Shown here in pieces: positions 3,899-44,861 of a stretch of DNA of 64,000 nt. The DNA comes from Streptococcus infantarius subsp. infantarius ATCC BAA-102 (lineage in GTDB: Bacteria > Bacillota > Bacilli > Lactobacillales > Streptococcaceae): NCBI RefSeq assembly GCF_000154985.1, contig NZ_DS572692.1, positions 62,001 through 126,000 of the forward strand, written 5' to 3'. Numbering within the stretch: position 1 is the stretch's first letter; each line of letters begins with the position of its first letter. The notes under the pieces are model-generated. The model had not been told where the DNA came from. It searched no databases and saw nothing but the letters and a program-made list of their open reading frames with translations. Position numbers and translations under genes: made by a program.

Positions 3899-5305
3899 AT
3901 GATACATCTTAATCGCAGTGCAGGGAGTAGTCCCCTATACCAGCAGATTTACCAGCAGATAAAATCAGATATTTTGCAGGGCTATTTAGCGCCTGATGAG
4001 AAACTGTTAGGAACACGAACCCTAGCAAAAATGCTGAGCGTCAGTCGAAATACGGTTGACCGAGCTTACATGCAGCTGACCCTAGAAGGGTATATCGAGA
4101 GCCGTCAAAATGCAGGCTTTTACGTTTTAAAAATGCCAAAGGCTTTTCAGTCAGAAAGAACTTTGACCGAGCCCATTTTAAAAACTGAAGCCAAGTCTGA
4201 TGACGACCACATTGTTTACGATTTGACCAACAGCAGCCATACGAGTAATCTATTTCCCAAGAAAGTTTGGAAAACACATTATCAAAATGCCTTTGATGAG
4301 TTAGATAAAGCAGAGCAATTGTCGACCTTGCAGCCTTTTCAGGGAGAGTACAAGCTGAGAAAGGAAATTAGTCGTTATCTGGAGCGTATTCGAGGGGTAA
4401 AATGTCACCCAGACCAAATCATTATCACTAGCGGGCTTCAACAATCTTTGGATTATATTTGCCAGTTTTTAGGGAATACGAAAAGAAGTGTCTTGATGGA
4501 GGACCCGAGTTATCCCAAGGCGCGTGAAATTTTTAAGAAAAATGCCTATCCAATCGTGACGGCAGAAGTTGATGAGAAGGGTTTGGACTTGACTAAGGTT
4601 GATAGGAGTTCGGAGATTGAGATGATTTACACCACACCATCTCACCAATTTCCGCTTGGTATGATTATGCCGATTTCTAGACGTCGTGAACTCTTGAGTT
4701 TTGCTGAAGCGTACAATTCTTTTATTCTTGAGGATGACTATGACAGCGAGCTCCGCTATTACCAACGTCCCATTCCAGCCTTGAAATCAATTGACTATCT
4801 GGGTCGTGTGATTTATCTGGGGACTTTTTCAAAAATCCTTTCACCGTCTTTTCGTATGGGGTATATGGTTTTGCCAGAACAGTTCACTGAGAGTTTTCTA
4901 GAAAAATTCAAGCTTTACAACAGCACGGTCAATCTCTTGAATCAGATTGCTCTAGCAAATATTCTATCAAGTGGTGATTACGACCGTTTGGTTCGCAAGA
5001 TGAATCATGTTTTTAAAAAGCGCTATGAAGCCTTTAAAAAAGAATTTGAGCAGTTTAATGCTCCCATAAAACTCTCTTCAAACGTCAGTGGACAGTATTT
5101 TTTGGTGACTTTTCCGGATAAAATCAACCAGTGTGATGTTATCAAGCGTGCAGAAAAAGAAGGTGTTCGAGTCTACGATACCATGCAATTTTGGCAAGAA
5201 AAAGCGGCTTGTCCGCAGGAAAGCCTCTTTCTTGGATTTAGTAAAATTGATTTGGAAGACATCCCAGATTGTGTCAGACGCCTTAGAAAAGCTTGGGAGA
5301 ATTAA
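3899..5305 (+). CDS. MocR/PdxR-type regulator (GntR HTH + aminotransferase fold)
   Basis: Transcription factor of 468 aa. Residues 1-75 are a GntR winged helix (SVSRNTVDRAY recognition region). Residues ~100-465 form a fold-type I aminotransferase domain with the PLP lysine at Lys312 in GTFSKILSPSFRMGY. Members sense PLP or amino-group ligands and control vitamin B6, GABA or transport genes. No B6 synthesis genes are nearby; the only divergent partner is the EamA transporter, its likely target. Confidence 0.88.
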   Translation: MIHLNRSAGSSPLYQQIYQQIKSDILQGYLAPDEKLLGTRTLAKMLSVSRNTVDRAYMQLTLEGYIESRQNAGFYVLKMPKAFQSERTLTEPILKTEAKSDDDHIVYDLTNSSHTSNLFPKKVWKTHYQNAFDELDKAEQLSTLQPFQGEYKLRKEISRYLERIRGVKCHPDQIIITSGLQQSLDYICQFLGNTKRSVLMEDPSYPKAREIFKKNAYPIVTAEVDEKGLDLTKVDRSSEIEMIYTTPSHQFPLGMIMPISRRRELLSFAEAYNSFILEDDYDSELRYYQRPIPALKSIDYLGRVIYLGTFSKILSPSFRMGYMVLPEQFTESFLEKFKLYNSTVNLLNQIALANILSSGDYDRLVRKMNHVFKKRYEAFKKEFEQFNAPIKLSSNVSGQYFLVTFPDKINQCDVIKRAEKEGVRVYDTMQFWQEKAACPQESLFLGFSKIDLEDIPDCVRRLRKAWEN

Positions 5306-10251: not shown

Positions 10252-10551
10252 GTGAGAACAATTACGACAAGTGAACTAGAAGCTGTTATGCAGGACAAGT
10301 CTACGGTTTTACTAGATGTGCGAACAGCTCAAGAATACGCTGGGGGGCATATTAAAGGAGCACGGCTTTTCCCGCTTGACAGAATTCATACCTACGAGGG
10401 TAAAAAAGGTAGTACGATTTACTTGATTTGTCACTCTGGCACACGTAGTAAGCGTGCAGCTAAACTTTTGAGTCAAAAAGGCTATGATGCGATTTCGGTC
10501 AAAGGTGGCATGATGGCTTGGCAAGGAAAAATCATTGGAGGAAAGAAATGA
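10252..10551 (+). CDS. Single-domain rhodanese (sulfurtransferase)
   Basis: Sulfur carrier with active-site Cys60 in LICHSGTRS. The annotated GTG at 10252 has no ribosome site. In frame upstream, AAAGGAG (10206-10212) lies 9 nt before ATT 10222, which would add IFLKKLFSQS; initiation at ATT (rare, as in infC) is the better-supported start. The downstream CoA-disulfide reductase ATG overlaps the stop, so translation is coupled. Confidence 0.85.
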   Translation: MRTITTSELEAVMQDKSTVLLDVRTAQEYAGGHIKGARLFPLDRIHTYEGKKGSTIYLICHSGTRSKRAAKLLSQKGYDAISVKGGMMAWQGKIIGGKK

Positions 10552-12203
10552 CTAAGATTATTATTGTTGGTGGTGTCGCTGGGGGTATGTCAGCTGCGAC
10601 ACGTCTTCGCCGCTTGATGGAAGACGCTGAAATTATTGTTTTTGATAAAGGACCATACGTGTCATTTGCTAACTGTGGCTTACCTTTTCATGTTTCTGGA
10701 GAAATAGCAGAGCGTGATAATTTGCTAGTTCAGACACCTGAGCGATTGAAGGCGCGCTTTAACATTGATGTCCGTCCAGAATCAGAGGTCTTATCAGTTG
10801 ATGCAGACAAAAAAGAAATCACTGTTCGTCATGATGATAAGGTCTACACAGAATCATATGATAAATTAATCCTATCACCAGGTGCCAAACCATTTGTCCC
10901 AGAAATGGAAGGTCTAGACAGTGCAGATAATGTTTTTGTGCTTCGCAATATTCCAGATTTGGATAAAATCATGACTGCTTTATCTGATGTACAATCAGGA
11001 AATGCGACAGTCATCGGTGCTGGATTTATCGGGCTTGAAATGGCAGAAAGCTTGGCTAAAAAAGGTTTGAACGTGACTATCGTTGAAAAAGCCCCGCATG
11101 TTTTGCCACCACTCGATGAAGAAATGGCAGCCTTTGTGAAAAACGAATTGGCTCGAAACGGTATCACAGTTTACACTAATCAATCTGCCAAAGCTTTCAA
11201 AGAAAATGGAAAAGTGATTATTTTGGAAGACGGTAGTGAGTTGACTTCAGATATTACTATTATGTCTGTTGGGGTTCAACCTGAATCAAGTCTCGCTAAA
11301 GAAGCTGGTCTTGAGCTCGGCCTTCGTGGCGGTATTTTGGTTAACCAAAACTACCAAACAAGTAACCCAGATATTTACGCAGTGGGTGATGCCATTATTG
11401 TCAAACAAGAAATTACTGGTCAAGATGCGCTTATTTCTCTTGCTAGTCCAGCTAACCGTCAAGGCCGTCAAGTTGCGGATAACATTGCTGGCATTGCGCG
11501 TCAGAATAAAGGTAGTATCGGAACAGCTATTGTGCGTGTCTTTGATTTAGCAGCTGCTTCAACAGGACTTAGCGAACGTATTGCTCGTCAAAACTTTGAT
11601 GATGTTGCTGTTGTTCATACGAATAACAAGGACCATGCTGGATACTATCCAGGAGCAACTGATGTTGTTTTGAAATTGATTTTCAATAAGAAAACTGGTG
11701 TTATTTATGGAGCTCAAGCAGTTGGTCAAAAAGGTGTTGATAAACGTATCGATGTTTTAGCGACAGCCATTAAAGCAGGCTTGACCGTGGTAGATCTTCC
11801 TGAATTAGAATTTACTTATGCGCCACCATTTGGAGCAGCAAAAGATCCGGTTAATATGGCAGGATATGCTGCACTTAATATCATTGAAGGCGTTAGTGAA
11901 TCTATCCAATGGTATGAATTAGCTGACGAATTAGCCAAAGGCAAGGTCTTTCTTGATGTCCGTACTGAAGCAGAAGTTGCTAGAGGTTATATTGCAAATG
12001 GTATTAACATACCACTAGATAGTTTGCGTGACCGTTTGTCTGAGTTAGACCCTAACAAGGAATACATTATTAGCTGTCACAGCGGTCTTCGTTCTTACAT
12101 TGGCGAACGTATCTTGAAACAAAATGGCTTTAAAGTGAAGAACCTTGATGGGGCATACCACCTCTATAGTACTGTAAAACCAGAGGAGATTAAACGTGAT
12201 TAA
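10548..12203 (+). CDS. CoA-disulfide reductase with C-terminal rhodanese domain
   Basis: FAD-dependent reductase of 551 aa acting on CoA disulfide or CoA-persulfide/polysulfide. N-terminal GGVAGGMSAATRLRR binds FAD; the single redox cysteine is Cys43 in SFANCGLPF as in CoADR. A rhodanese domain covers ~460-551 with Cys510 (ISCHSGLRS). The start is ATG 10548 after GGAGGAAAG, overlapping the previous stop (ATGA). The fused form (CoADR-RHD) is known for polysulfide handling, fitting its neighbours. Confidence 0.9.
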   Translation: MTKIIIVGGVAGGMSAATRLRRLMEDAEIIVFDKGPYVSFANCGLPFHVSGEIAERDNLLVQTPERLKARFNIDVRPESEVLSVDADKKEITVRHDDKVYTESYDKLILSPGAKPFVPEMEGLDSADNVFVLRNIPDLDKIMTALSDVQSGNATVIGAGFIGLEMAESLAKKGLNVTIVEKAPHVLPPLDEEMAAFVKNELARNGITVYTNQSAKAFKENGKVIILEDGSELTSDITIMSVGVQPESSLAKEAGLELGLRGGILVNQNYQTSNPDIYAVGDAIIVKQEITGQDALISLASPANRQGRQVADNIAGIARQNKGSIGTAIVRVFDLAAASTGLSERIARQNFDDVAVVHTNNKDHAGYYPGATDVVLKLIFNKKTGVIYGAQAVGQKGVDKRIDVLATAIKAGLTVVDLPELEFTYAPPFGAAKDPVNMAGYAALNIIEGVSESIQWYELADELAKGKVFLDVRTEAEVARGYIANGINIPLDSLRDRLSELDPNKEYIISCHSGLRSYIGERILKQNGFKVKNLDGAYHLYSTVKPEEIKRD

Positions 12204-35405: not shown

Positions 35406-35529
35406 ATAAAAATCACCTTACCTGGTTTTATATAGAAGCTGGATAAGGGAATAGTAAAGATAAAAGTATTGATATATGGTATTATATATTGGTATATAAA
35501 TTAGAAAATCAAGTAATCGGAGGAAGATT

Positions 35530-38082
35530 ATGAATAAACAGCAACTTGCTTCAAAAATTTGGGAATCAGCTAATAAAATGCGTTCTAAAATTGAAGCTAA
35601 CGAATATAAAGACTATATTTTGGGTTTTATATTCTATAAATTCCTTTCTGAACAAGAAGAAAAATATTTAAAGGAAAATGACTGGACTGACAAATATTTA
35701 TGTGAACTAACTGAAGAAGATCCAGAAGTTGTTGAAAGTATTCAAAAAAATCTTGGATATTTTATTTCATACAATAATTTATTTTCTACTTGGATTAAAA
35801 AGGGTAGTGATTTTAGTGTCCAAGATGTACGAGATGCATTATCAGCTTTTAGTCGATTAATAGATTCTGCTCACAAAGATGTCTTTGAAGGTGTTTTTGA
35901 TACACTGCAAACTGGACTTTCAAAATTAGGTGAAGGTTCAGCTTCTCAAACAAAAGCTATTAGTGATTTAATCTATCTTATTAGGGATATTCCTATGGAT
36001 GGAAAACAAGATTATGATGTTTTAGGATTTATCTATGAATACCTGATTAGCATGTTTGCTGCAAATGCTGGTAAAAAAGCTGGTGAATTTTATACCCCTC
36101 ACGAAGTTTCACTGTTAATGTCAGAAATTGTTGCTGAACATTTAAAAGATAGAGAGTCAATTAAAATCTACGATCCTACAAGTGGTTCTGGCTCATTGCT
36201 GATTAATATTGGTAAAAGTGCCTCAAAATATATATCTAATAAGGACAATATTAAGTATTATGCCCAAGAGTTAAAGCAGAACACATATAATTTGACACGT
36301 ATGAATCTTGTTATGCGAGGTATTTTGCCAGATAATATTGTTACGCGAAATGGAGATACCTTGGAGGATGATTGGCCTTATTTTGATGACAAAGATCCAA
36401 TTGCTACTTATGAACCTTTGTATGTTGATGCAGTTGTTTCTAATCCGCCATATTCACAATCATGGGATCCTACTGATAAAGAAACTGATCCACGATATGC
36501 TCGCTTTGGATTAGCGCCAAAAGGAAAAGCAGACTATGCCTTTTTACTTCATGATCTTTTTCACATTAAAAGCGATGGAATCATGACAATCGTATTGCCA
36601 CACGGTGTATTATTCCGAGGTGGTGAAGAAGGCGAAATTCGTAAAAACTTAATTGAACAAAATCATATCGATGCTATTATCGGTTTACCGTCAAACATCT
36701 TTTTTGGAACCGGTATTCCAACGATTATCATGATTTTGAAACAAAAACGTGAAAATACTGATGTATTGGTAGTTGATGCCTCTAAAGGTTTTATTAAATC
36801 AGGAAAAAATAATAAATTACGAGCTTCTGATATTAAACGTATTGTTGATGTTGTGATAAATCGTGAAAATGTTGCAAACTTTTCGCGCGTGGTATCTCGC
36901 GATGAAATTCGAAACAATAATTACAATCTTAATATTCCTCGTTATGTTGATTCTTCAGAGAAAACTGAAAGTTGGGATATTTTTGCAACAATGTTTGGTG
37001 GTATTCCAAAATCTGAATTAGAAGATTTAAGTGATTTTTGGAATGCTTTTCCAAATTTAAAATCAGATTTATTCCAAGAGATAAATGCATCTACGTATCA
37101 ATTAAAAGTGTCTGATATCAAGAAAGCTGTTTTTTCTCATCCAGAAATTCAACAGTTTTTTGAAACATCTCGAAAAGTTTTCTCAGACATTCCGCAATAT
37201 ATGCGAGAGGAATTAATTGATCATATTAATGAAGTACATGTTCAGAGAGAAGAAGAAAAATTAGCACAATATATATTTAAACGTTTAGAAAGCATGCCGC
37301 TAATTGATAAATATGATGCGTATGAGAAATTAGATACACAATGGCAGTATATGCAAACTGATATTGAGATTCTTCAAACAGAAGGATTTGACGCTGCAAA
37401 AAAAGTTGATCCTAATCTAGTTATCAAGAAAAAATCAGGTAAAGAAGTAGAGGTTCAAGAAGGATGGCTGGGACATGTTTTGCCATTTGATTTGGTCCAA
37501 AAGGAATTACTGGCTGATGAAGTTAACTCAATTTCTAATAAGGAAAATCGCTTAAATGATATTTCAGCAGAAATCGAAGAACTTTTTGAAGAATTACCAG
37601 AAGAAGAAAAAGAAAAAGACTTCGTCAATGATGCTAAGGATGCATTTGTTAATGCTAAAGTTAAGAAAGCTCAAAAGGATGAGACACTGGATCTAGCGGT
37701 AAGAGATATCTTAAAACAAGTAGTTAGTCTTCAAAACGAAGAAAAATCTCTTAAATCTGATGTAAAATCAGCTGTTGACAATCTCCAAAATAAAACTAAA
37801 GTTCAAATTGAACAATTGTCTAATGCCCAAGTTTACATGCTATTGGAGAAAAAATGGATTACTCCATTCATCGAACAAATGCAATCACTGACTCAAGAGT
37901 TAGTCAATGAGTTAGTTCAAAAAATTGAACAACTTTCTCAGAAGTATGATGAAACACTATCTGATATCGATAATGAAATAAAAGAAGCAGAGTCTACTTT
38001 AGCTTCAATGTTACAAGATTTAGAAGGTAACGAATTCGATATGAGTGGTATTCAAGAACTCATTAAATTATTGGGAGAATAA
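35530..38082 (+). CDS. hsdM: Type I restriction-modification methyltransferase subunit HsdM, extended
   Basis: N6-adenine methyltransferase. Residues 1-140 form the HsdM N-terminal domain; the SAM site is DPTSGSGSLL (from Asp215), the catalytic motif NPPY (305-308), and IIGLPSNIFFGTGIPT is a family hallmark. Typical HsdM is ~500-550 aa; this one is 850 aa. Residues ~560-850 add a Glu/Lys-rich region predicted as long coiled coil (AEIEELFEELPEEEKEKD and later heptads). AGGAAG precedes the ATG. Operon order hsdM-hsdS-hsdR. Confidence 0.94.
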   Translation: MNKQQLASKIWESANKMRSKIEANEYKDYILGFIFYKFLSEQEEKYLKENDWTDKYLCELTEEDPEVVESIQKNLGYFISYNNLFSTWIKKGSDFSVQDVRDALSAFSRLIDSAHKDVFEGVFDTLQTGLSKLGEGSASQTKAISDLIYLIRDIPMDGKQDYDVLGFIYEYLISMFAANAGKKAGEFYTPHEVSLLMSEIVAEHLKDRESIKIYDPTSGSGSLLINIGKSASKYISNKDNIKYYAQELKQNTYNLTRMNLVMRGILPDNIVTRNGDTLEDDWPYFDDKDPIATYEPLYVDAVVSNPPYSQSWDPTDKETDPRYARFGLAPKGKADYAFLLHDLFHIKSDGIMTIVLPHGVLFRGGEEGEIRKNLIEQNHIDAIIGLPSNIFFGTGIPTIIMILKQKRENTDVLVVDASKGFIKSGKNNKLRASDIKRIVDVVINRENVANFSRVVSRDEIRNNNYNLNIPRYVDSSEKTESWDIFATMFGGIPKSELEDLSDFWNAFPNLKSDLFQEINASTYQLKVSDIKKAVFSHPEIQQFFETSRKVFSDIPQYMREELIDHINEVHVQREEEKLAQYIFKRLESMPLIDKYDAYEKLDTQWQYMQTDIEILQTEGFDAAKKVDPNLVIKKKSGKEVEVQEGWLGHVLPFDLVQKELLADEVNSISNKENRLNDISAEIEELFEELPEEEKEKDFVNDAKDAFVNAKVKKAQKDETLDLAVRDILKQVVSLQNEEKSLKSDVKSAVDNLQNKTKVQIEQLSNAQVYMLLEKKWITPFIEQMQSLTQELVNELVQKIEQLSQKYDETLSDIDNEIKEAESTLASMLQDLEGNEFDMSGIQELIKLLGE

Positions 38083-38085
38083 CTG

Positions 38086-39336
38086 ATGAAAGATACAAAT
38101 AAGTTAAACCCAGAAGTTCGTTTTTCAGGATTTACTGATGATTGGGAACAGCGTAAGTTGTCGGATATATACAGAGATATTGGAAATGCATTTGTTGGAA
38201 CTGCTACTCCGTATTATGTTGAAGAGGGACATTTCTATCTTGAATCCAATAATGTAAAAGACGGACAGATAAACCATAATACCGAAGTATTTATTAATGA
38301 TGAGTTTTATGAGAAACAAAAAGATAAATGGCTGCACACTGGTGATATGGTTATGGTTCAATCTGGACATGTTGGTCATGCTGCTGTAATTCCAGAAGAG
38401 CTGGACTGTTCAGCCGCCCACGCACTTATTATGTTCAGAAATCCAAAGTTTAAGATTGAACCGTATTTTTTGAATTATCAGTACCAGACAGTCAAGGCAA
38501 AAAAGAAAATCGAGAACATAACAACAGGTAATACCATTAAACATATCCTCGCTTCTGAGATGCAGAAATTTATTGTGGACGTAGCTTCATATGATGAACA
38601 AGAAAAGATTGCTGGATTCTTCAGCCACCTCGACAGCCTCATCACTCTTCATCAGCGTAAGTTAAATGGTCTAAAAAATGTAAAAAAAGCTATGCTTGAA
38701 AAAATGTTTCCTAAAAATGGTGAAAGTGTTCCAGAAATTCGTTTTTCAGGATTTACTGATGATTGGGAACAGCGTAAGTTGTCGGATATATACAGAGATA
38801 TTGGAAATGCATTTGTTGGAACTGCTACTCCGTATTATGTTGAAGAGGGACATTTCTATCTTGAATCCAATAATGTAAAAGACGGACAGATAAACCATAA
38901 TACCGAAGTATTTATTAATGATGAGTTTTATGAGAAACAAAAAGATAAATGGCTGCACACTGGTGATATGGTTATGGTTCAATCTGGACATGTTGGTCAT
39001 GCTGCTGTAATTCCAGAAGAGCTGGACTGTTCAGCCGCCCACGCACTTATTATGTTCAGAAATCCAAAGTTTAAGATTGAACCGTATTTTTTGAATTATC
39101 AGTACCAGACAGTCAAGGCAAAAAAGAAAATCGAGAACATAACAACAGGTAATACCATTAAACATATCCTCGCTTCTGAGATGCAGAAATTTATTGTGGA
39201 CGTAGCTTCATATGATGAACAAGAAAAGATTGCTGGATTCTTCAGCCACCTCGACAGCCTCATCACTCTTCATCAGCGTAAGTTAGATAAGTTAAAAACA
39301 GTAAAAAAAGCAATGCTTGAAAAAATGTTTATTTAG
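38086..39336 (+). CDS. hsdS: Type I specificity subunit HsdS with two identical halves
   Basis: 416 aa made of two target-recognition domains, each starting RFSGFTDDWEQRKLSD and ending with the conserved helix region FFSHLDSLITLHQRKL. The halves are identical at DNA level over 548 bp. In normal HsdS the two TRDs differ and read different half-sites; identical TRDs predict a symmetric (inverted-repeat) bipartite target. Start is 3 nt after hsdM. Confidence 0.93.
   Translation: MKDTNKLNPEVRFSGFTDDWEQRKLSDIYRDIGNAFVGTATPYYVEEGHFYLESNNVKDGQINHNTEVFINDEFYEKQKDKWLHTGDMVMVQSGHVGHAAVIPEELDCSAAHALIMFRNPKFKIEPYFLNYQYQTVKAKKKIENITTGNTIKHILASEMQKFIVDVASYDEQEKIAGFFSHLDSLITLHQRKLNGLKNVKKAMLEKMFPKNGESVPEIRFSGFTDDWEQRKLSDIYRDIGNAFVGTATPYYVEEGHFYLESNNVKDGQINHNTEVFINDEFYEKQKDKWLHTGDMVMVQSGHVGHAAVIPEELDCSAAHALIMFRNPKFKIEPYFLNYQYQTVKAKKKIENITTGNTIKHILASEMQKFIVDVASYDEQEKIAGFFSHLDSLITLHQRKLDKLKTVKKAMLEKMFI
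38117..38664 (+). repeat. Direct repeat in hsdS, copy 1
   Basis: 548 bp identical to 38738-39285 (period 621 bp). Flanking bases differ at once on both sides (G/A at 38116/38737, A/G at 38665/39286), so the identity ends sharply. Confidence 0.95.
38738..39285 (+). repeat. Direct repeat in hsdS, copy 2
   Basis: Second exact 548-bp copy, covering TRD2 and its conserved region. Zero divergence implies very recent recombination, gene conversion, or an assembly duplication. Confidence 0.95.
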
Positions 39337-39352
39337 TAATTAGGAGAATATT

Positions 39353-42300
39353 ATGGTTTTTAATAGTGAATCAGAATTCGAAGAAGCCTTAATTAAACTC
39401 CTTTCTGAAAAGGGCTGGGAGAAAAAAGTTTTAAAAAACTATACAGAAAAGGATTTATTACGTAACTGGGCTGATATTCTTTTTGAAAATAATCGTGGTA
39501 TTGATCGTCTAAATGATTATCCACTTACAGATACTGAAATGCAACAGATTTTAGAGCAAATTGAAAATTTGCGTACACCATTAAAATTAAATGGCTTTAT
39601 TAATGGTAAAAGTGTTTCAATAACTAGGGATAATCCAGATGATAAACTCCATTATGGAAAAGAAGTGAGTTTAAAAATTTATGATCGCCGTGAAATTGCT
39701 GCTGGTCAAAGTCGTTATCAGATTGTTCAGCAACCTAAATTCCCTACAAAATCTAAAATACTCAACGACCGTCGTGGTGATTTAATGCTTTTGATTAATG
39801 GAATGCCTGTTATTCATATTGAGTTAAAGAAAAGTGGCGTTCCTGTCAGTGATGCTTACCACCAAATTGAGAAATATTCGCGAGAGGGAGTATTCACAGG
39901 ACTATTTTCATTAGTTCAAATTTTTGTTGCAATGGAGCCTGATGAAACGGTCTATTTTGCAAATCCGGGTCCAGATGGTCAATTTAATAAAAGTTATTAT
40001 TTCCATTGGGCTGATTTTAATAATGAACCTATTAATGAGTGGGATAAAATTGTGTCCACACTTTTATCGATTCCGATGGCACACCAATTAATTGGTTTTT
40101 ATACAGTTGCAGATAATTCAGATGGCGTTTTAAAAGTTATGCGTAGTTATCAATATTTTGCAGCAAATGCTATATCCGATAAAGTAGCTCAAACAAATTG
40201 GGATGGTGATAATCAATTAGGTGGTTATGTTTGGCATACAACAGGTTCAGGGAAGACAATGACAAGTTTTAAATCTGCTCAATTAATCGCAGCTTCTAAG
40301 GATGCAGATAAAGTCATTTTTTTAATGGATCGCATTGAACTAGGAACTCAATCTTTAAAAGAATACCGAGGATTTGCTTCAGAGAATGAAGGAGTACAAG
40401 CAACAGAAAATACTGGTGTTCTTATTGCTAAGTTAAAAAGTACTGAGCCTTCAAATACGTTAATTGTGACATCTATTCAAAAAATGAGTAATATCAAGAA
40501 TGAACCAGAAGGGCTTAATTCTAGTGATATTGAGTTAATGAACAGTAAACGCATAGTGTTTATTATTGATGAAGCTCATCGTTCAACTTTTGGTGATATG
40601 CTTATTACGATTAAAAAGACATTTCCAAAGGCAATCTTCTTTGGATTTACGGGTACACCAATTCAAGAAGAAAATCAAAAGAAAAACAATACAACCTCGA
40701 CTGTGTTTGGAAATGAATTACATCGTTACAGTATTGCTGATGGTATAAGAGATAAAAATGTTTTAGGTTTTGATCCATATAAAGTTCTTACTTTTAGAGA
40801 TAAAGATATACGACAATCAGTTGCTTTAGAAAAAGCAAAAGCTAAAACTGAAGAAGAAGCTATTTCTGATCCTCAAAAAGCTAAAATATATTATAAATAT
40901 ATGGCTTCAAATGAAATTGGAATGGCAGGACATACTGAAGATAATGGGCGATACGTAAAAGGAATAGAAGATTATGTTCCAATGGTCCAATATCAAACTG
41001 ATGATCATATTAACAGTGTAGTTAATGATATCTTAGAAAATTGGGTAAGGTTAAGTCGCGGTGGCAAATTTCATGCAATATTTGCCACGAGCAGTATTCC
41101 AGAGGCTATTGTCTATTACCGAAAATTAAAAGAATTGAAACCTGATTTAAAAGTTACTGCATTATTCGATCCTAATATTGACAATAGTGGAAATATTGAT
41201 TTTAAAGAAGATGGGTTGTCTGAAATTATTAAAGACTATAACAAAAGATATGATCAAAACTTTGCTATTCCAACGTTTTCTAAAATGAAGAAAGATATTT
41301 CAGCTCGTTTAGCTCATAAGAAACCATATCAAAGATTATCTACAGGTCAACAAATTGATTTATTAATCGTTGTTGATCAAATGTTAACTGGTTTTGATTC
41401 TAAATGGATTAATACTCTTTATATGGATAAAATCCTTCAATACGAAAACATCATTCAAGCTTTTTCTAGAACTAATCGTTTATTTGGTGACGAAAAGCCA
41501 TTTGGTACAATTCGTTATTATAGAAAACCCCATACGATGGAACGAAATATAGAAGATGCTGTAAAATTGTATTCTGGAGATAAGCCATTAGGATTATTTG
41601 TTCAGCATATTGTTAAAAATATCGAAAATATGAATCGTTTGTATAAAGAAATTTCCGATTTATTTATACACTCAGGTATTAAGAATTTTGAGAAAATTCC
41701 AGATGATAAATCAGTTTCTCGTAAATTTGCCAAACTTTTTAGTGAATTCAAAGCATGTTTAGAGGCTGCTAAAATTCAAGGTTTTACCTGGAAAAAGGAT
41801 ATATATACAGATGAATCTCAGCAAATAAAAGTTAATTTTACTAAAACGGAATATTACGTACTATCATTGAGATATCAAGAACTTTATTCTAAAGACTCTG
41901 GTGATGGAATTGATGTTGGAGAAGATATAGTTCCGTATGATATAAGTTCTTACATTACAGAACTTGATACTGGTGTGATTGATGCAGATTATATGAATTC
42001 ACGATTCAGCAAGTATTTAAAATTACTAAATGATTCTTCATCAAGTAAAGCAATATCAAATGCTGAGGAAGAGCTTCATAAAACTTTTGCAACTTTGACA
42101 CAAGAAGAACAAAAATTTGCTAATATTTTTCTTCATGAAATTCAACGAGGAGAAGTAGAGGTATCTGAGGACAAAACGTTTAGAGATTATATAACAGAAT
42201 ATATAGCAAGGAATAAAAATGATCAAATTCATAATTTAGCTGAAAACCTTGGTCTCGATGAAGAGAAATTACGTTATATAATGAACTTGAAGCTTAATGA

Positions 42301-42493
42301 AGCAAATATTAATGAATTTGGACGTTATTCAGAGTTAAAAGATACTGTTGATAAAGGAAAAGCAAAAGAGTATCTGGAAAAAATTGAAGGAAAGAAAATC
42401 ATTCCTCCAAAAGTTGGAATAAAAGTAGATAAATTATTACGAAATTTTATTACAAGTGGTGGATTTGATATAGAAATAGTCGATGAAAAATAA
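39353..42493 (+). CDS. hsdR: Type I restriction endonuclease subunit HsdR
   Basis: 1046-aa translocase/nuclease. N-terminal nuclease motif: IEL-K with Glu157 and Lys159 after the acidic loop in DRRGDLMLLINGMP. SF2 motor: Walker A TTGSGKT (Lys301), DEAH 406-409, motif III FTGTPIQ, and motif VI region QAFSRTNR. A helical C-terminal region contacts HsdM. Intact. Starts 16 bp after hsdS with AGGAG. Confidence 0.95.
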   Translation: MVFNSESEFEEALIKLLSEKGWEKKVLKNYTEKDLLRNWADILFENNRGIDRLNDYPLTDTEMQQILEQIENLRTPLKLNGFINGKSVSITRDNPDDKLHYGKEVSLKIYDRREIAAGQSRYQIVQQPKFPTKSKILNDRRGDLMLLINGMPVIHIELKKSGVPVSDAYHQIEKYSREGVFTGLFSLVQIFVAMEPDETVYFANPGPDGQFNKSYYFHWADFNNEPINEWDKIVSTLLSIPMAHQLIGFYTVADNSDGVLKVMRSYQYFAANAISDKVAQTNWDGDNQLGGYVWHTTGSGKTMTSFKSAQLIAASKDADKVIFLMDRIELGTQSLKEYRGFASENEGVQATENTGVLIAKLKSTEPSNTLIVTSIQKMSNIKNEPEGLNSSDIELMNSKRIVFIIDEAHRSTFGDMLITIKKTFPKAIFFGFTGTPIQEENQKKNNTTSTVFGNELHRYSIADGIRDKNVLGFDPYKVLTFRDKDIRQSVALEKAKAKTEEEAISDPQKAKIYYKYMASNEIGMAGHTEDNGRYVKGIEDYVPMVQYQTDDHINSVVNDILENWVRLSRGGKFHAIFATSSIPEAIVYYRKLKELKPDLKVTALFDPNIDNSGNIDFKEDGLSEIIKDYNKRYDQNFAIPTFSKMKKDISARLAHKKPYQRLSTGQQIDLLIVVDQMLTGFDSKWINTLYMDKILQYENIIQAFSRTNRLFGDEKPFGTIRYYRKPHTMERNIEDAVKLYSGDKPLGLFVQHIVKNIENMNRLYKEISDLFIHSGIKNFEKIPDDKSVSRKFAKLFSEFKACLEAAKIQGFTWKKDIYTDESQQIKVNFTKTEYYVLSLRYQELYSKDSGDGIDVGEDIVPYDISSYITELDTGVIDADYMNSRFSKYLKLLNDSSSSKAISNAEEELHKTFATLTQEEQKFANIFLHEIQRGEVEVSEDKTFRDYITEYIARNKNDQIHNLAENLGLDEEKLRYIMNLKLNEANINEFGRYSELKDTVDKGKAKEYLEKIEGKKIIPPKVGIKVDKLLRNFITSGGFDIEIVDEK

Positions 42494-42494
42494 A

Positions 42495-42523
42495 AGAAGG
42501 AGAGAGTCTCCTTCTTTTTTTAC
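42495..42523. terminator. Bidirectional terminator between hsdR and the recombinase
   Basis: AGAAGGAGA (42495-42503) pairs perfectly with TCTCCTTCT (42507-42515), with A's on the left and T's on the right. Confidence 0.85.
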
Positions 42524-43455
42524 GAATTCAAACTTGATAATGACCACATGATAATATCGATATCTTTGCTTTCTAGTTCGTTAATGATGTGAAGATATGT
42601 TTTTTGTGTTGTTGTCATGTTTGAGTGTCCTAGTCGTCTAGCCACACTTGCTATAGAAACGCCTGCAAAGAGCAGTAGTGAAGCGTGTGTATGACGTAAA
42701 CCATGGATAGAAATAATTGGAACGCCAGCGTTTTTACAATGACGCGCTAGACGGTCATTGACAGTAGAATTGTACACTTTTCCTTTGACAAAAATAGGTT
42801 TGTCTTCGGGTAAACTTTTTAAAAGCTCAGCAAATTGAATAACGGTTTGCCAATCAATAGGGATTTTACGAACAGAAGATTCGTTTTTTGTAGGAAGAAA
42901 GCCACCGTTCTCTTTATAGTTCCATGTTTTTGAGACAGAGAGAGTTTGTCTTGTTAAATCAAAATCTTTTGGGGTTAGTGCTAAAGCTTCGGAAAATCGC
43001 AAGCCTGTTTTAGCAATAAGAAGAATGAGCCAATCCATATTAATCTCACTTTTTAAATCCAAATCATCAAGAAGTTTGTGGAGTTCATATTGATTGAGAA
43101 ATTTAGGCTTCTTTTCGCGTGGCTGTTTTCCTTTTATGATAGCTTTTCGAGTTGGATCCCGTGGAATAAGTCCCTCATCTACTGCATCAAGAATCGCACA
43201 TTTTAAATGATGATGAAAATCCATAGTTGTTTGTCTTTCGTGAACACTAGCGTATTGATTTAATATTTTTTGATAAGAAATACGGTCTAAATGCTGTATC
43301 TGTAGTTTTGGTACAAGCTTTTCAAGCCATCGATAGGCCATATAATATTTTTGCATAGTGATTGGTCGAATCGCTCCCTCTTTATAAACCATAATCCATT
43401 GTTTGTAGTAGTCACAGAATAACATTTTTTCAGAATTGATTATCATTTCATCCAT
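42520..43455 (-). CDS. Tyrosine recombinase next to hsdS'
   Basis: 311-aa integrase-family recombinase: N-terminal core-binding domain (5-110) and catalytic domain with Arg in KTGLRFSEAL, HGLRHTHASLL (His-x-x-Arg), LGHSN and the nucleophile Tyr in KTYLHI. It lies 2 bp from the inverted hsdS fragment, matching the position of the recombinase in streptococcal phase-variable type I loci (psrA/creX type). Confidence 0.88.
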   Translation of the reverse strand: MDEMIINSEKMLFCDYYKQWIMVYKEGAIRPITMQKYYMAYRWLEKLVPKLQIQHLDRISYQKILNQYASVHERQTTMDFHHHLKCAILDAVDEGLIPRDPTRKAIIKGKQPREKKPKFLNQYELHKLLDDLDLKSEINMDWLILLIAKTGLRFSEALALTPKDFDLTRQTLSVSKTWNYKENGGFLPTKNESSVRKIPIDWQTVIQFAELLKSLPEDKPIFVKGKVYNSTVNDRLARHCKNAGVPIISIHGLRHTHASLLLFAGVSIASVARRLGHSNMTTTQKTYLHIINELESKDIDIIMWSLSSLNS

Positions 43456-43457
43456 TT

Positions 43458-44015
43458 TTATAAGCCTCCTGACAATAATGTATCACAACACCTATAAAAT
43501 ATCTGTTTTAAGGTATAAAATACCTTACGCTGATGAAGAGTGATAGTGTCGTCGAGTTGTTGGAAGAATGAGCCAATTTTTTTTTGCTCTTTGAAACTTG
43601 GTAGAAAGGCAAAAACATTATTAATCACACTTTTAGATAAACTAGGAACACCTGTTGATTCATCATATTTCTTCCAATTAATTTTTTTAAAAATTGCTAA
43701 GGTAAATTGTAAGTCAATATTTGTTTGTGGAGTAGCATAGAATAAAGTATCTACAGTCCAAAATGGTGCTTTAAGCAAGTATGGTTTATCGATTGTTCCT
43801 TTTCGTCCGATACCAATGGCATCAGTTTTTTCTGATAAAGCTTCGTTGACACTTAGCATATATCCACCAGTACCATAAACAGGTATATTTCCTTTGTTAA
43901 GGTGTTTATAGTCTCTACCAGAATGAACATCAATAATTTTATCTAACTTACGCAGTTCCCAAGCGTGATTATCTCCTTCCCCAATTCTTCCAGCGCTAGC
44001 TAATTTTCTACATAC
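43458..44015 (-). pseudogene. Silent, 5'-truncated second hsdS (hsdS')
   Basis: In-frame from 44015 with no initiator until ATG 43859. It contains a connecting region (KLASAGRIGEGDNHAWELRKLD), a TRD unlike those of hsdS (IIDVHSGRDYKHLNKGNIPVYGTGGY...), and the conserved region SFFQQLDDTITLHQRKV. No promoter or start serves it. It shares a 21-bp identical stretch with hsdS after the TRD (43524-43544, core ATCACTCTTCATCAGCG) and a 17-bp near-match before it (43945-43961). A TRD donor cassette. Confidence 0.82.
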
Positions 44016-44120
44016 TCACAAAGAATTCACACAAACATTGTTCTTTCATAATTCTTTACAGCCCTGCCAACTTCCAAAAGAAATAATATCGTGACTAAAA
44101 ACTTCCTTGATTTTATGCTA

Positions 44121-44127
44121 AAATAGA
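44121..44127 (+). promoter_or_regulatory. -10 region of gntR
   Basis: TAAAAT follows a TTGATT -35-like box at the right spacing (CTTGATTTTATGCTAAAATAG), upstream of ATG 44163 with GGGAG. Confidence 0.45.
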
Positions 44128-44162
44128 GCTAAGTTATTTAGAACAGAACGGGAGTAGAGGTT

Positions 44163-44861
44163 ATGATTCCAGCATATATTAGAATTCATGATGCGTTAAA
44201 GAAAAAGATTGACGATGGTTTTTGGGAGATTGGTCAGCGTTTGCCGAGTGAGCGTGATTTGGCGGATGACTACGAGGTGAGTCGTATGACGCTTCGTCAG
44301 GCGATTACGCTTTTGGTGGAAGAAGGGATTCTTGAGCGCCGTGTGGGTAGCGGGACTTATGTGGCGAGTCATCGCGTGCAAGAGAAGATGCGAGGAACAA
44401 CGAGTTTCACAGAGATTGTGCGTTCACAAGGCAAGAGCCCGTCATCTCAGGTGGTTTCTTATCAGCGTAAGCCTGCTAATGAGACTGAAATTCAGCAGTT
44501 GCAACTGAAACCTAGTGATTATGTGGTTCGCATGGAGCGTGTGCGTTATGCGGATAACATGCCGCTTGTTTTTGAGGTGGCGTCAATCCCAGAGAAGTTG
44601 ATTCGTGAGTTTAAGCGTGAGGATATCACGGAGCATTTTTTCCAGACTTTGACGGATAATGGTTATGAGATTGGTAAGAGTCAACAAACCATTTATGCCA
44701 AAAATGCGAGTGAGCGCGTGGCTAACTACCTTAAGGTTCCGAAAAATCATGCCGTACTGGCTTTGACACAGGTCTCATATTTCACAGATGGTAGACCATT
44801 TGAGTACGTACACAGTCAGTATGTCGGCGACCGCTTCGAATTTTATTTGGAGAATAATTAA
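44163..44861 (+). CDS. GntR-family regulator with UTRA domain
   Basis: 232 aa: GntR winged helix (8-70, LPSERDLADDYEVSRMTLRQA) and a UTRA effector domain (90-230). The family senses sugar phosphates or related small molecules; the ligand here is unknown. In streptococci a gene like this commonly precedes ylxM-ffh, as here. Confidence 0.9.
   Translation: MIPAYIRIHDALKKKIDDGFWEIGQRLPSERDLADDYEVSRMTLRQAITLLVEEGILERRVGSGTYVASHRVQEKMRGTTSFTEIVRSQGKSPSSQVVSYQRKPANETEIQQLQLKPSDYVVRMERVRYADNMPLVFEVASIPEKLIREFKREDITEHFFQTLTDNGYEIGKSQQTIYAKNASERVANYLKVPKNHAVLALTQVSYFTDGRPFEYVHSQYVGDRFEFYLENN

Follow-up and report, generated by a model that had tools for sequence, protein, structure and literature searches.

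Several type I restriction-modification (R-M) systems have been described in which the specificity gene, hsdS, is rearranged within its own locus. The pneumococcal SpnIII/cod system is reported to be shuffled through inverted repeats in hsdS, with the tyrosine recombinase PsrA acting at a short repeat (PMC4948785, PMC7096588), and at the pneumococcal tvr locus a recombinase is described as moving units that code for target recognition domains (TRDs), single halves included (PMC6265443). For SsuCC20p of Streptococcus suis, tests in culture are reported to show that TRD exchange depends on the locus-borne recombinase; no inverted xerD was found among the S. suis assemblies or reads described there, and the authors speculate on coordinated double recombination (PMC10790761). 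In Listeria monocytogenes ST8, hsdS inversions at agcttgggaacagcgt and ctatcgctcttcatcagcgtaagttagat in the hsd locus LMR479A_0528-0532 were inferred from strain comparison (PMC4783014), and in Mycoplasma pulmonis the R and M genes are described as lying between inverted S genes (PMC3077401). Here, we have analysed a type I locus in a 64,000-nucleotide stretch of Streptococcus infantarius subsp. infantarius ATCC BAA-102 (contig NZ_DS572692.1, positions 62,001 to 126,000; hereafter the window), in which an expressed hsdS is accompanied by a silent half gene, hsdS', and by a tyrosine recombinase gene. Our best reading, drawn from sequence comparison, is that the locus belongs with the known phase-variable type I R-M systems, as a variant that works by recombinase-mediated exchange of TRD cassettes, and we consider it very likely that the recombinase encoded at 42520-43455 exchanges such cassettes between hsdS and hsdS'.

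In the window, hsdM, hsdS and hsdR follow one another as long open frames with family matches, all three intact, and the recombinase gene lies on the opposite strand with hsdS' directly upstream of it in the recombinase's own direction. A first-pass annotation of this DNA had proposed a silent hsdS' behind hsdR and adjoining a tyrosine recombinase, which the open frames and Pfam matches bear out, and had pointed to two inverted matches between the partners, both of which are present: 38641-38661 and 39262-39282 are the reverse complement of 43524-43544 at 21/21 positions, and the 17-bp match of 38143-38159 and 38764-38780 with 43945-43961 has one mismatch (TGGGAACAGCG vs TGGGAACTGCG). Two hallmarks of phase-variable type I systems, a second TRD with inverted repeats and a site-specific recombinase within the locus, are therefore found here. 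Within hsdS, the stretches 38117-38664 and 38738-39285, which span the two copies of the TRD, are identical.

Within these matches lie two sites. Site5 (TGGGAACAGCGTAAG), at the 5' edge of the TRD, encodes W-E-Q-R-K, and site3 (CTTCATCAGCGTAAG), at the 3' edge, encodes L-H-Q-R-K; the two have AGCGTAAG in common and differ in the adjoining seven bases. Of 2000 randomly drawn segment pairs matched to these in size (starts less than 2 kb apart were skipped yet counted among the 2000), 4 had an inverted shared word of at least 15 bases, and the hsdS and hsdS' segments share eight overlapping 15-base word positions. Some likeness is expected from homology, both being hsdS, and it is the use of codons at the sites that addresses this point. 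Across loci with a recombinase of at least 50% identity (84 of the 129 loci; these first counts include some places fetched twice), the QRK codons read CAGCGTAAG in 111/134 W.QRK and 64/92 HQRK, where background codon use (Q CAG 0.39, R CGT 0.25, K AAG 0.34) would lead one to expect about 3%. Removal of identical rows left 123 site5 rows and 88 site3 rows. In the former, Q, R and K are encoded by CAG, CGT and AAG in 93%, 91% and 95%, respectively, and ahead of the site3 QRK the leucine is CTT in 88/88 and the histidine CAT in 83/83 of the distinct rows with those residues, with ordinary codon scatter at conserved residues neighbouring the sites. Judged from these codon counts, both sites keep their codons far beyond protein need among recombinase loci. 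Any QRK at all is present in 124/151 S open reading frames (ORFs) with a recombinase in the fetched DNA and in 18/54 without, and W.QRK reads CAGCGTAAG in 2/9 of those without. A perfect two-armed palindrome was also considered for both sites and rejected, as ACGCT/AGCGT fits part of the site5 rows and site3 does not fit.

Comparison with sister genomes, the check that the first-pass annotation had itself proposed, revealed exchanged TRDs whose ends fall at the repeats it had named, and so supports its suggestion of a recombinase-linked silent TRD donor for hsdS. The hsdS inversions inferred at these core sequences in L. monocytogenes ST8 (PMC4783014) lend it support as well. Genome G259 (locus L157) has the same R-M type as the window, with HsdM, HsdR and recombinase 94%, 91% and 94% identical. 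The TRD doubled in the window's hsdS is the silent TRD of G259, with 6 mismatches in 519 bp (513/519); outside the cassette, mismatches are dense from -2 leftwards and from +519, and long stretches common to the two loci are 83-89% identical vs 98.8% for the cassette. In genome G267 the locus is present twice, as L158 and L159. Over 4135 bp, starting at the silent site3 and running across the recombinase and hsdR genes, the two are 99.88% identical, but their TRDs differ, the difference in the silent slot lying between site5 and site3. Alternative TRD arrangements are present in close relatives in both of these pairs. More site-bounded shared cassettes were found in L012, L046 and L153, and between L144 and L092 (both of genome G155), L153 and L154, and L024 and L026. 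For L012 and for the pair L153 and L154, identity stops after CAGCGT. The expressed site3 of L153 is distinguished from the silent one by the third base of CAG, which would place the 3' exchange in that locus at or left of this base. The ends of exchange lie at the sites and do not vary with flanking homology, except in L040. In the window tandem and in L153, alike flanks carry the identity some bases left of site5.

A further line of evidence is the presence of one TRD in several slots. We examined 92 loci, of which 58 have at least two S halves, and counted as duplicates TRDs at least 95% identical over 380 nt. In six of the 58 (the window, L012, L034, L040, L046 and L153) a TRD occupies at least two slots, and G155 represents another case across its two fetched stretches. 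L034 is doubtful, both copies touching contig ends. Site-bounded multi-slot TRDs are found in five genomes: those of the window, L012, L046 and L153, and G155. In L153 one TRD is present in the single expressed half and in all three silent halves, and it recurs at 100% identity over 480 nt in L154, a second type I system of the same genome (G178) about 190 kb away. The HsdM of L154 is only 43% identical to the L021-type HsdM. The first-pass annotation had suggested that the doubled TRD in hsdS could have arisen by exchange, and such an origin is supported. The copies could have been made by exchange between sister chromosomes, by DNA uptake from siblings or by gene conversion, and the sharp block ends, as far as the sequences go, favour a site-specific step in TRD copying.

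We propose a model in which each TRD cassette would be bounded by two different sites, with site5 joining only site5 and site3 only site3, as their common core and differing seven bases suggest, so that the reading frame would be kept. The seven bases would then determine which sites can pair. One crossover per site would swap the TRD, probably altering the methylation target, and would leave hsdR and the recombinase unchanged. The likely catalyst is the recombinase of the window, whose active-site residues we take to be R153, K190, H251, R254, H277 and Y287, on the basis of the tyrosine recombinase motif; matches to R, H, R, H and Y are visible in its alignment with 3nkh.

A number of observations weigh against this model. 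The silent site5 of the window has an altered base inside the shared core and may be impaired. In a search of 284 genomes of the genus, with the recombinase called at E <= 1e-60 and found in 26, exact site5 was present in 7/26 recombinase-bearing vs 33/258 recombinase-less genomes. At the 20 of these 33 recombinase-less loci that were fetched, we found relict hsdS only (56-84 aa) in 15, a fragment with an hsdM piece in 1, a full system in 1 and no S match in 3; exact site5 is a weak genus-wide marker of the recombinase, largely because of these relicts. Among S ORFs without a recombinase in the fetched DNA, HQRK reads CAGCGTAAG in 16/19; 12 of the 19 lie in four stretches from recombinase-bearing genomes, but 4 of the remaining 7 also read CAGCGTAAG. 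Such ORFs are an unclean codon control, several being from genomes that carry the recombinase. Among the mycoplasma loci, read with code 4 (n=7), exact site3 occurs in two and site5 in none; the family thus lacks a single uniform set of sites. The expressed hsdS looks disrupted in L158 as well as in L159, and the G267 case consequently rests on the silent slot. In L158 the gene is interrupted by about 1.1 kb of other sequence (10313-11451), and in L159 there is a frame change near its 5' end (5004-5141) with loss of the exact site5. Duplicated TRDs could be mimicked by assemblies of mixed populations, and L040 was rejected as a site-bounded copy, its identity continuing past the sites.

The arrangement of hsdR bears on whether a simpler event might suffice. 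A plain pairwise inversion at site5 or site3 would turn round everything between the paired sites, hsdR and the recombinase gene included; it would be reversible and would split the hsd operon in one phase. We regard it as a real possibility, albeit a doubtful one. The site pairs do lie in inverted orientation, the same cores occur at the inversions inferred in L. monocytogenes ST8 (PMC4783014), and inversion is described for M. pulmonis with R and M between the S genes (PMC3077401). In addition, hsdR is turned round in two mycoplasma loci, opposite hsdM in L064 and opposite hsdS in L065, with the recombinase and silent halves between the turned genes. The existence of such orders, absent among the near relatives of the window and present in the wider family, takes some weight from cassette exchange and lends it to plain inversion. 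These loci could be switched states, but the silent halves of L064 point away from the recombinase and neither locus has an exact site5, so that both may instead be fixed layouts. Another mycoplasma locus, L062 (code 4), has the order hsdM, hsdS, hsdR, recombinase as in the window. From 61 loci, 29 with hsdM, a long hsdR and the recombinase were compared for layout, the length filter leaving out mycoplasmas. The window layout (hsdR between, co-oriented with hsdM, recombinase opposite hsdM) is shared by 12/29, so that a position of hsdR between the partners, which the first-pass annotation had called unusual, proves to be common in this recombinase family. A further 4/29 have hsdR between with the recombinase co-oriented, 12/29 have hsdR elsewhere, and 1/29 (L026, from Acetitomaculum ruminis) has hsdM opposite hsdR. 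In L026, hsdM is directed away from hsdS and hsdR, and we rejected it as a flipped form given that its gene order is unlike that predicted for inversion at the sites. Thus hsdR is co-oriented with hsdM in 28/29 loci, which argues against plain inversion. Moreover, inversion is conservative and cannot alter TRD copy number, and given the copies seen in five genomes, it is not the whole story.

Homologous gene conversion, with silent TRDs copied into hsdS and the recombinase as an occasional helper or a bystander, would account for several copies of one TRD and for the unchanged orientation of hsdR. The first-pass annotation had suggested that the position of hsdR may favour it, which our data do not uphold, as the blocks in common end where the approximately 15-bp sites do: flanks are unrelated in L012, L046, L144 with L092 and the window with L157, the starting homology is only about 15-30 bp, and the sites are conserved at codon level. 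We therefore consider it very unlikely. It might also be argued that the locus is a dead relic, shuffling having stopped in this strain, in view of the single altered base in the silent site5, a startless hsdS' and the frequency of hsdS fragments in recombinase-less streptococci. The frame of hsdS' is open from 44015 to 43458, its first ATG, GTG or TTG being an internal ATG at 43859; no ATG, GTG or TTG lies ahead of site5 in this frame of the window, where L155 and L156 have a TTG. However, a start before site5 is likewise missing from the silent halves of L153 and L157, loci whose cassettes also occur in other slots, the recombinase frame is intact with its catalytic motifs, the silent site3 is exact, and the cassette is 98.8% identical to that of a relative vs a difference of about 11-17% in other shared stretches. 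On this evidence a relic seems clearly unlikely. Finally, the recombinase may be a natural exchanger that trades cassettes between separate DNA molecules, for example sister chromosomes, and acts on two sites that are alike in one arm but differ in their cores. The donor would keep its copy, a TRD could spread to every slot of the locus and into other type I systems, and the orientation of hsdR would be kept; we hold this more specific proposal to be somewhat unlikely. If it were true, the recombinase and silent half would form a portable unit serving unrelated hsdMSR sets that keep both 15-bp sites.

A scan of genome contigs with the window recombinase returned 57 loci, including those of Streptococcus equinus Sb05 and Sb04 with a 98% identical recombinase, and the family extends over Bacillota, Pseudomonadota and mycoplasmas (groups taken from organism names). 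In the genus search, at least two exact site5 copies were found in 5 of the 284 genomes, and the recombinase is present in 5/5, which speaks for cassette exchange. Five genomes have a recombinase 91-99% identical to that of the window (G178, G257, G258, G259 and G267), and stretches were fetched for all five. In G178, G257 and G258 it is 98-99% identical, though their HsdR, about 29% identical, belongs to a different type, and gntR is 94-97% identical in these three vs 92% in G259. From these comparisons, it seems that one hsdMSR set has taken the place of another, the recombinase and silent half being retained. The recombinases of L023-L036, from Lachnospiraceae and other gut or rumen bacteria, are 73-83% identical to that of the window, and in L023, L027, L029 and L031 three or four silent halves lie next to the recombinase gene. 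The 15 relict loci of the genus search are L161, L162 and L164-L176, and many carry the same KGFTDEWEQRKLGDE stretch.

The features of the locus are collected in Table 1. Promoter-like matches in 42400-44200 number 8 vs a shuffle mean of 7.1, i.e. there is no excess. The interval 35450-44060, between a umuC-like operon and gntR, resembles a defence hotspot; in G001, the nearest genome examined, it is occupied by an Eco57I/ResIII-type enzyme. An AbiH-family gene lies beside the R-M genes in L022.

Table 1. Features of the type I locus, in positions of the window
Feature	Coordinates	Strand	Basis
hsdM, type I modification subunit, 850 aa	35530..38082	+	Pfam N6_Mtase PF02384, HsdM_N PF12161; NCBIfam TIGR00497 above its cut-off
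hsdS, expressed specificity subunit, same TRD twice, 621-bp period	38086..39336	+	Pfam Methylase_S; self-comparison
TRD cassette copy 1, 519 bp, site5 to site3	38143..38661	+	comparison with relatives
site5 TGGGAACAGCGTAAG, first hsdS half	38143..38157	+	
site3 CTTCATCAGCGTAAG, first hsdS half	38647..38661	+	
TRD cassette copy 2, identical to copy 1	38764..39282	+	self-comparison
site5, second hsdS half	38764..38778	+	
site3, second hsdS half	39268..39282	+	
hsdR, type I restriction subunit, 1046 aa	39353..42493	+	Pfam HsdR domains
Hairpin and T-run between convergent hsdR and recombinase genes	42492..42518	.	consensus match only
Tyrosine recombinase, 311 aa	42520..43455	-	Pfam Phage_integrase
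hsdS', silent single-TRD half gene	43458..44015	-	open frame; Methylase_S in 133-aa ORF 43458-43859
Silent TRD cassette, 438 bp	43524..43961	-	
site3 of silent cassette, exact	43524..43538	-	
site5 of silent cassette, one altered base (TGGGAACTGCGTAAG)	43947..43961	-	

This analysis provides a comparative map of exchange ends for a recombinase family of Bacillota, Pseudomonadota and mycoplasmas, and points to a way in which hsdR could remain between the partners of a shuffling locus. Whether TRDs in type I systems are shuffled by inversion or by cassette exchange with copying becomes a directly testable question. HsdS homodimers of type IC systems are reviewed as having palindromic targets (PMC3874165), and since both halves of the window's HsdS hold the same TRD, a palindromic target is predicted for this strain at present.

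Of the described systems, several resemble the locus in part. SpnIII/cod is likened to it here by description rather than by the sequence of PsrA or IR1, and differs in having several hsdS partners and repeats of 15 (IR1), 298 (IR2) and 85 bp (IR3) (PMC4948785, PMC7096588), whilst SsuCC20p is described with other repeats (TAAATCATCATTTA) and four TRDs (PMC10790761). The tvr locus differs in its toxin-antitoxin pair, its circular intermediates and the direct orientation of its repeats (PMC6265443), the sites here being inverted between hsdS and hsdS'; no toxin-antitoxin pair was noted among window ORFs of at least 60 aa, not all of which were searched against family libraries. In the hsdS domain movement of Helicobacter pylori, a TRD flanked by two kinds of repeat moves between hsdS halves, much as proposed here, but the repeats are direct, of 37 and 49 bp, and the account consulted makes no mention of a silent half with a recombinase (PMC3077401). 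The variable ends, following flanking homology, that mark conversion of the pilE/pilS type are not found in the loci compared here, L040 excepted. The Listeria ST8 locus is likewise a type I locus with a tyrosine integrase, and its repeats hold the window's site5 core and site3; the window recombinase is 64% identical to those of the Listeria portnoyi and Listeria rocourtiae loci L060 and L073, a figure that does not refer to ST8's own protein. In ST8 the integrase lies between two hsdS genes of opposite orientation (PMC4783014), whereas the window, instead of the two complete flanking genes of an ST8-type inverton, has one half-gene donor with hsdR between. Without claiming a first description, we file the locus as a further form of phase-variable type I system, one that shares the site cores of ST8 yet has a half-gene donor and an intervening hsdR.

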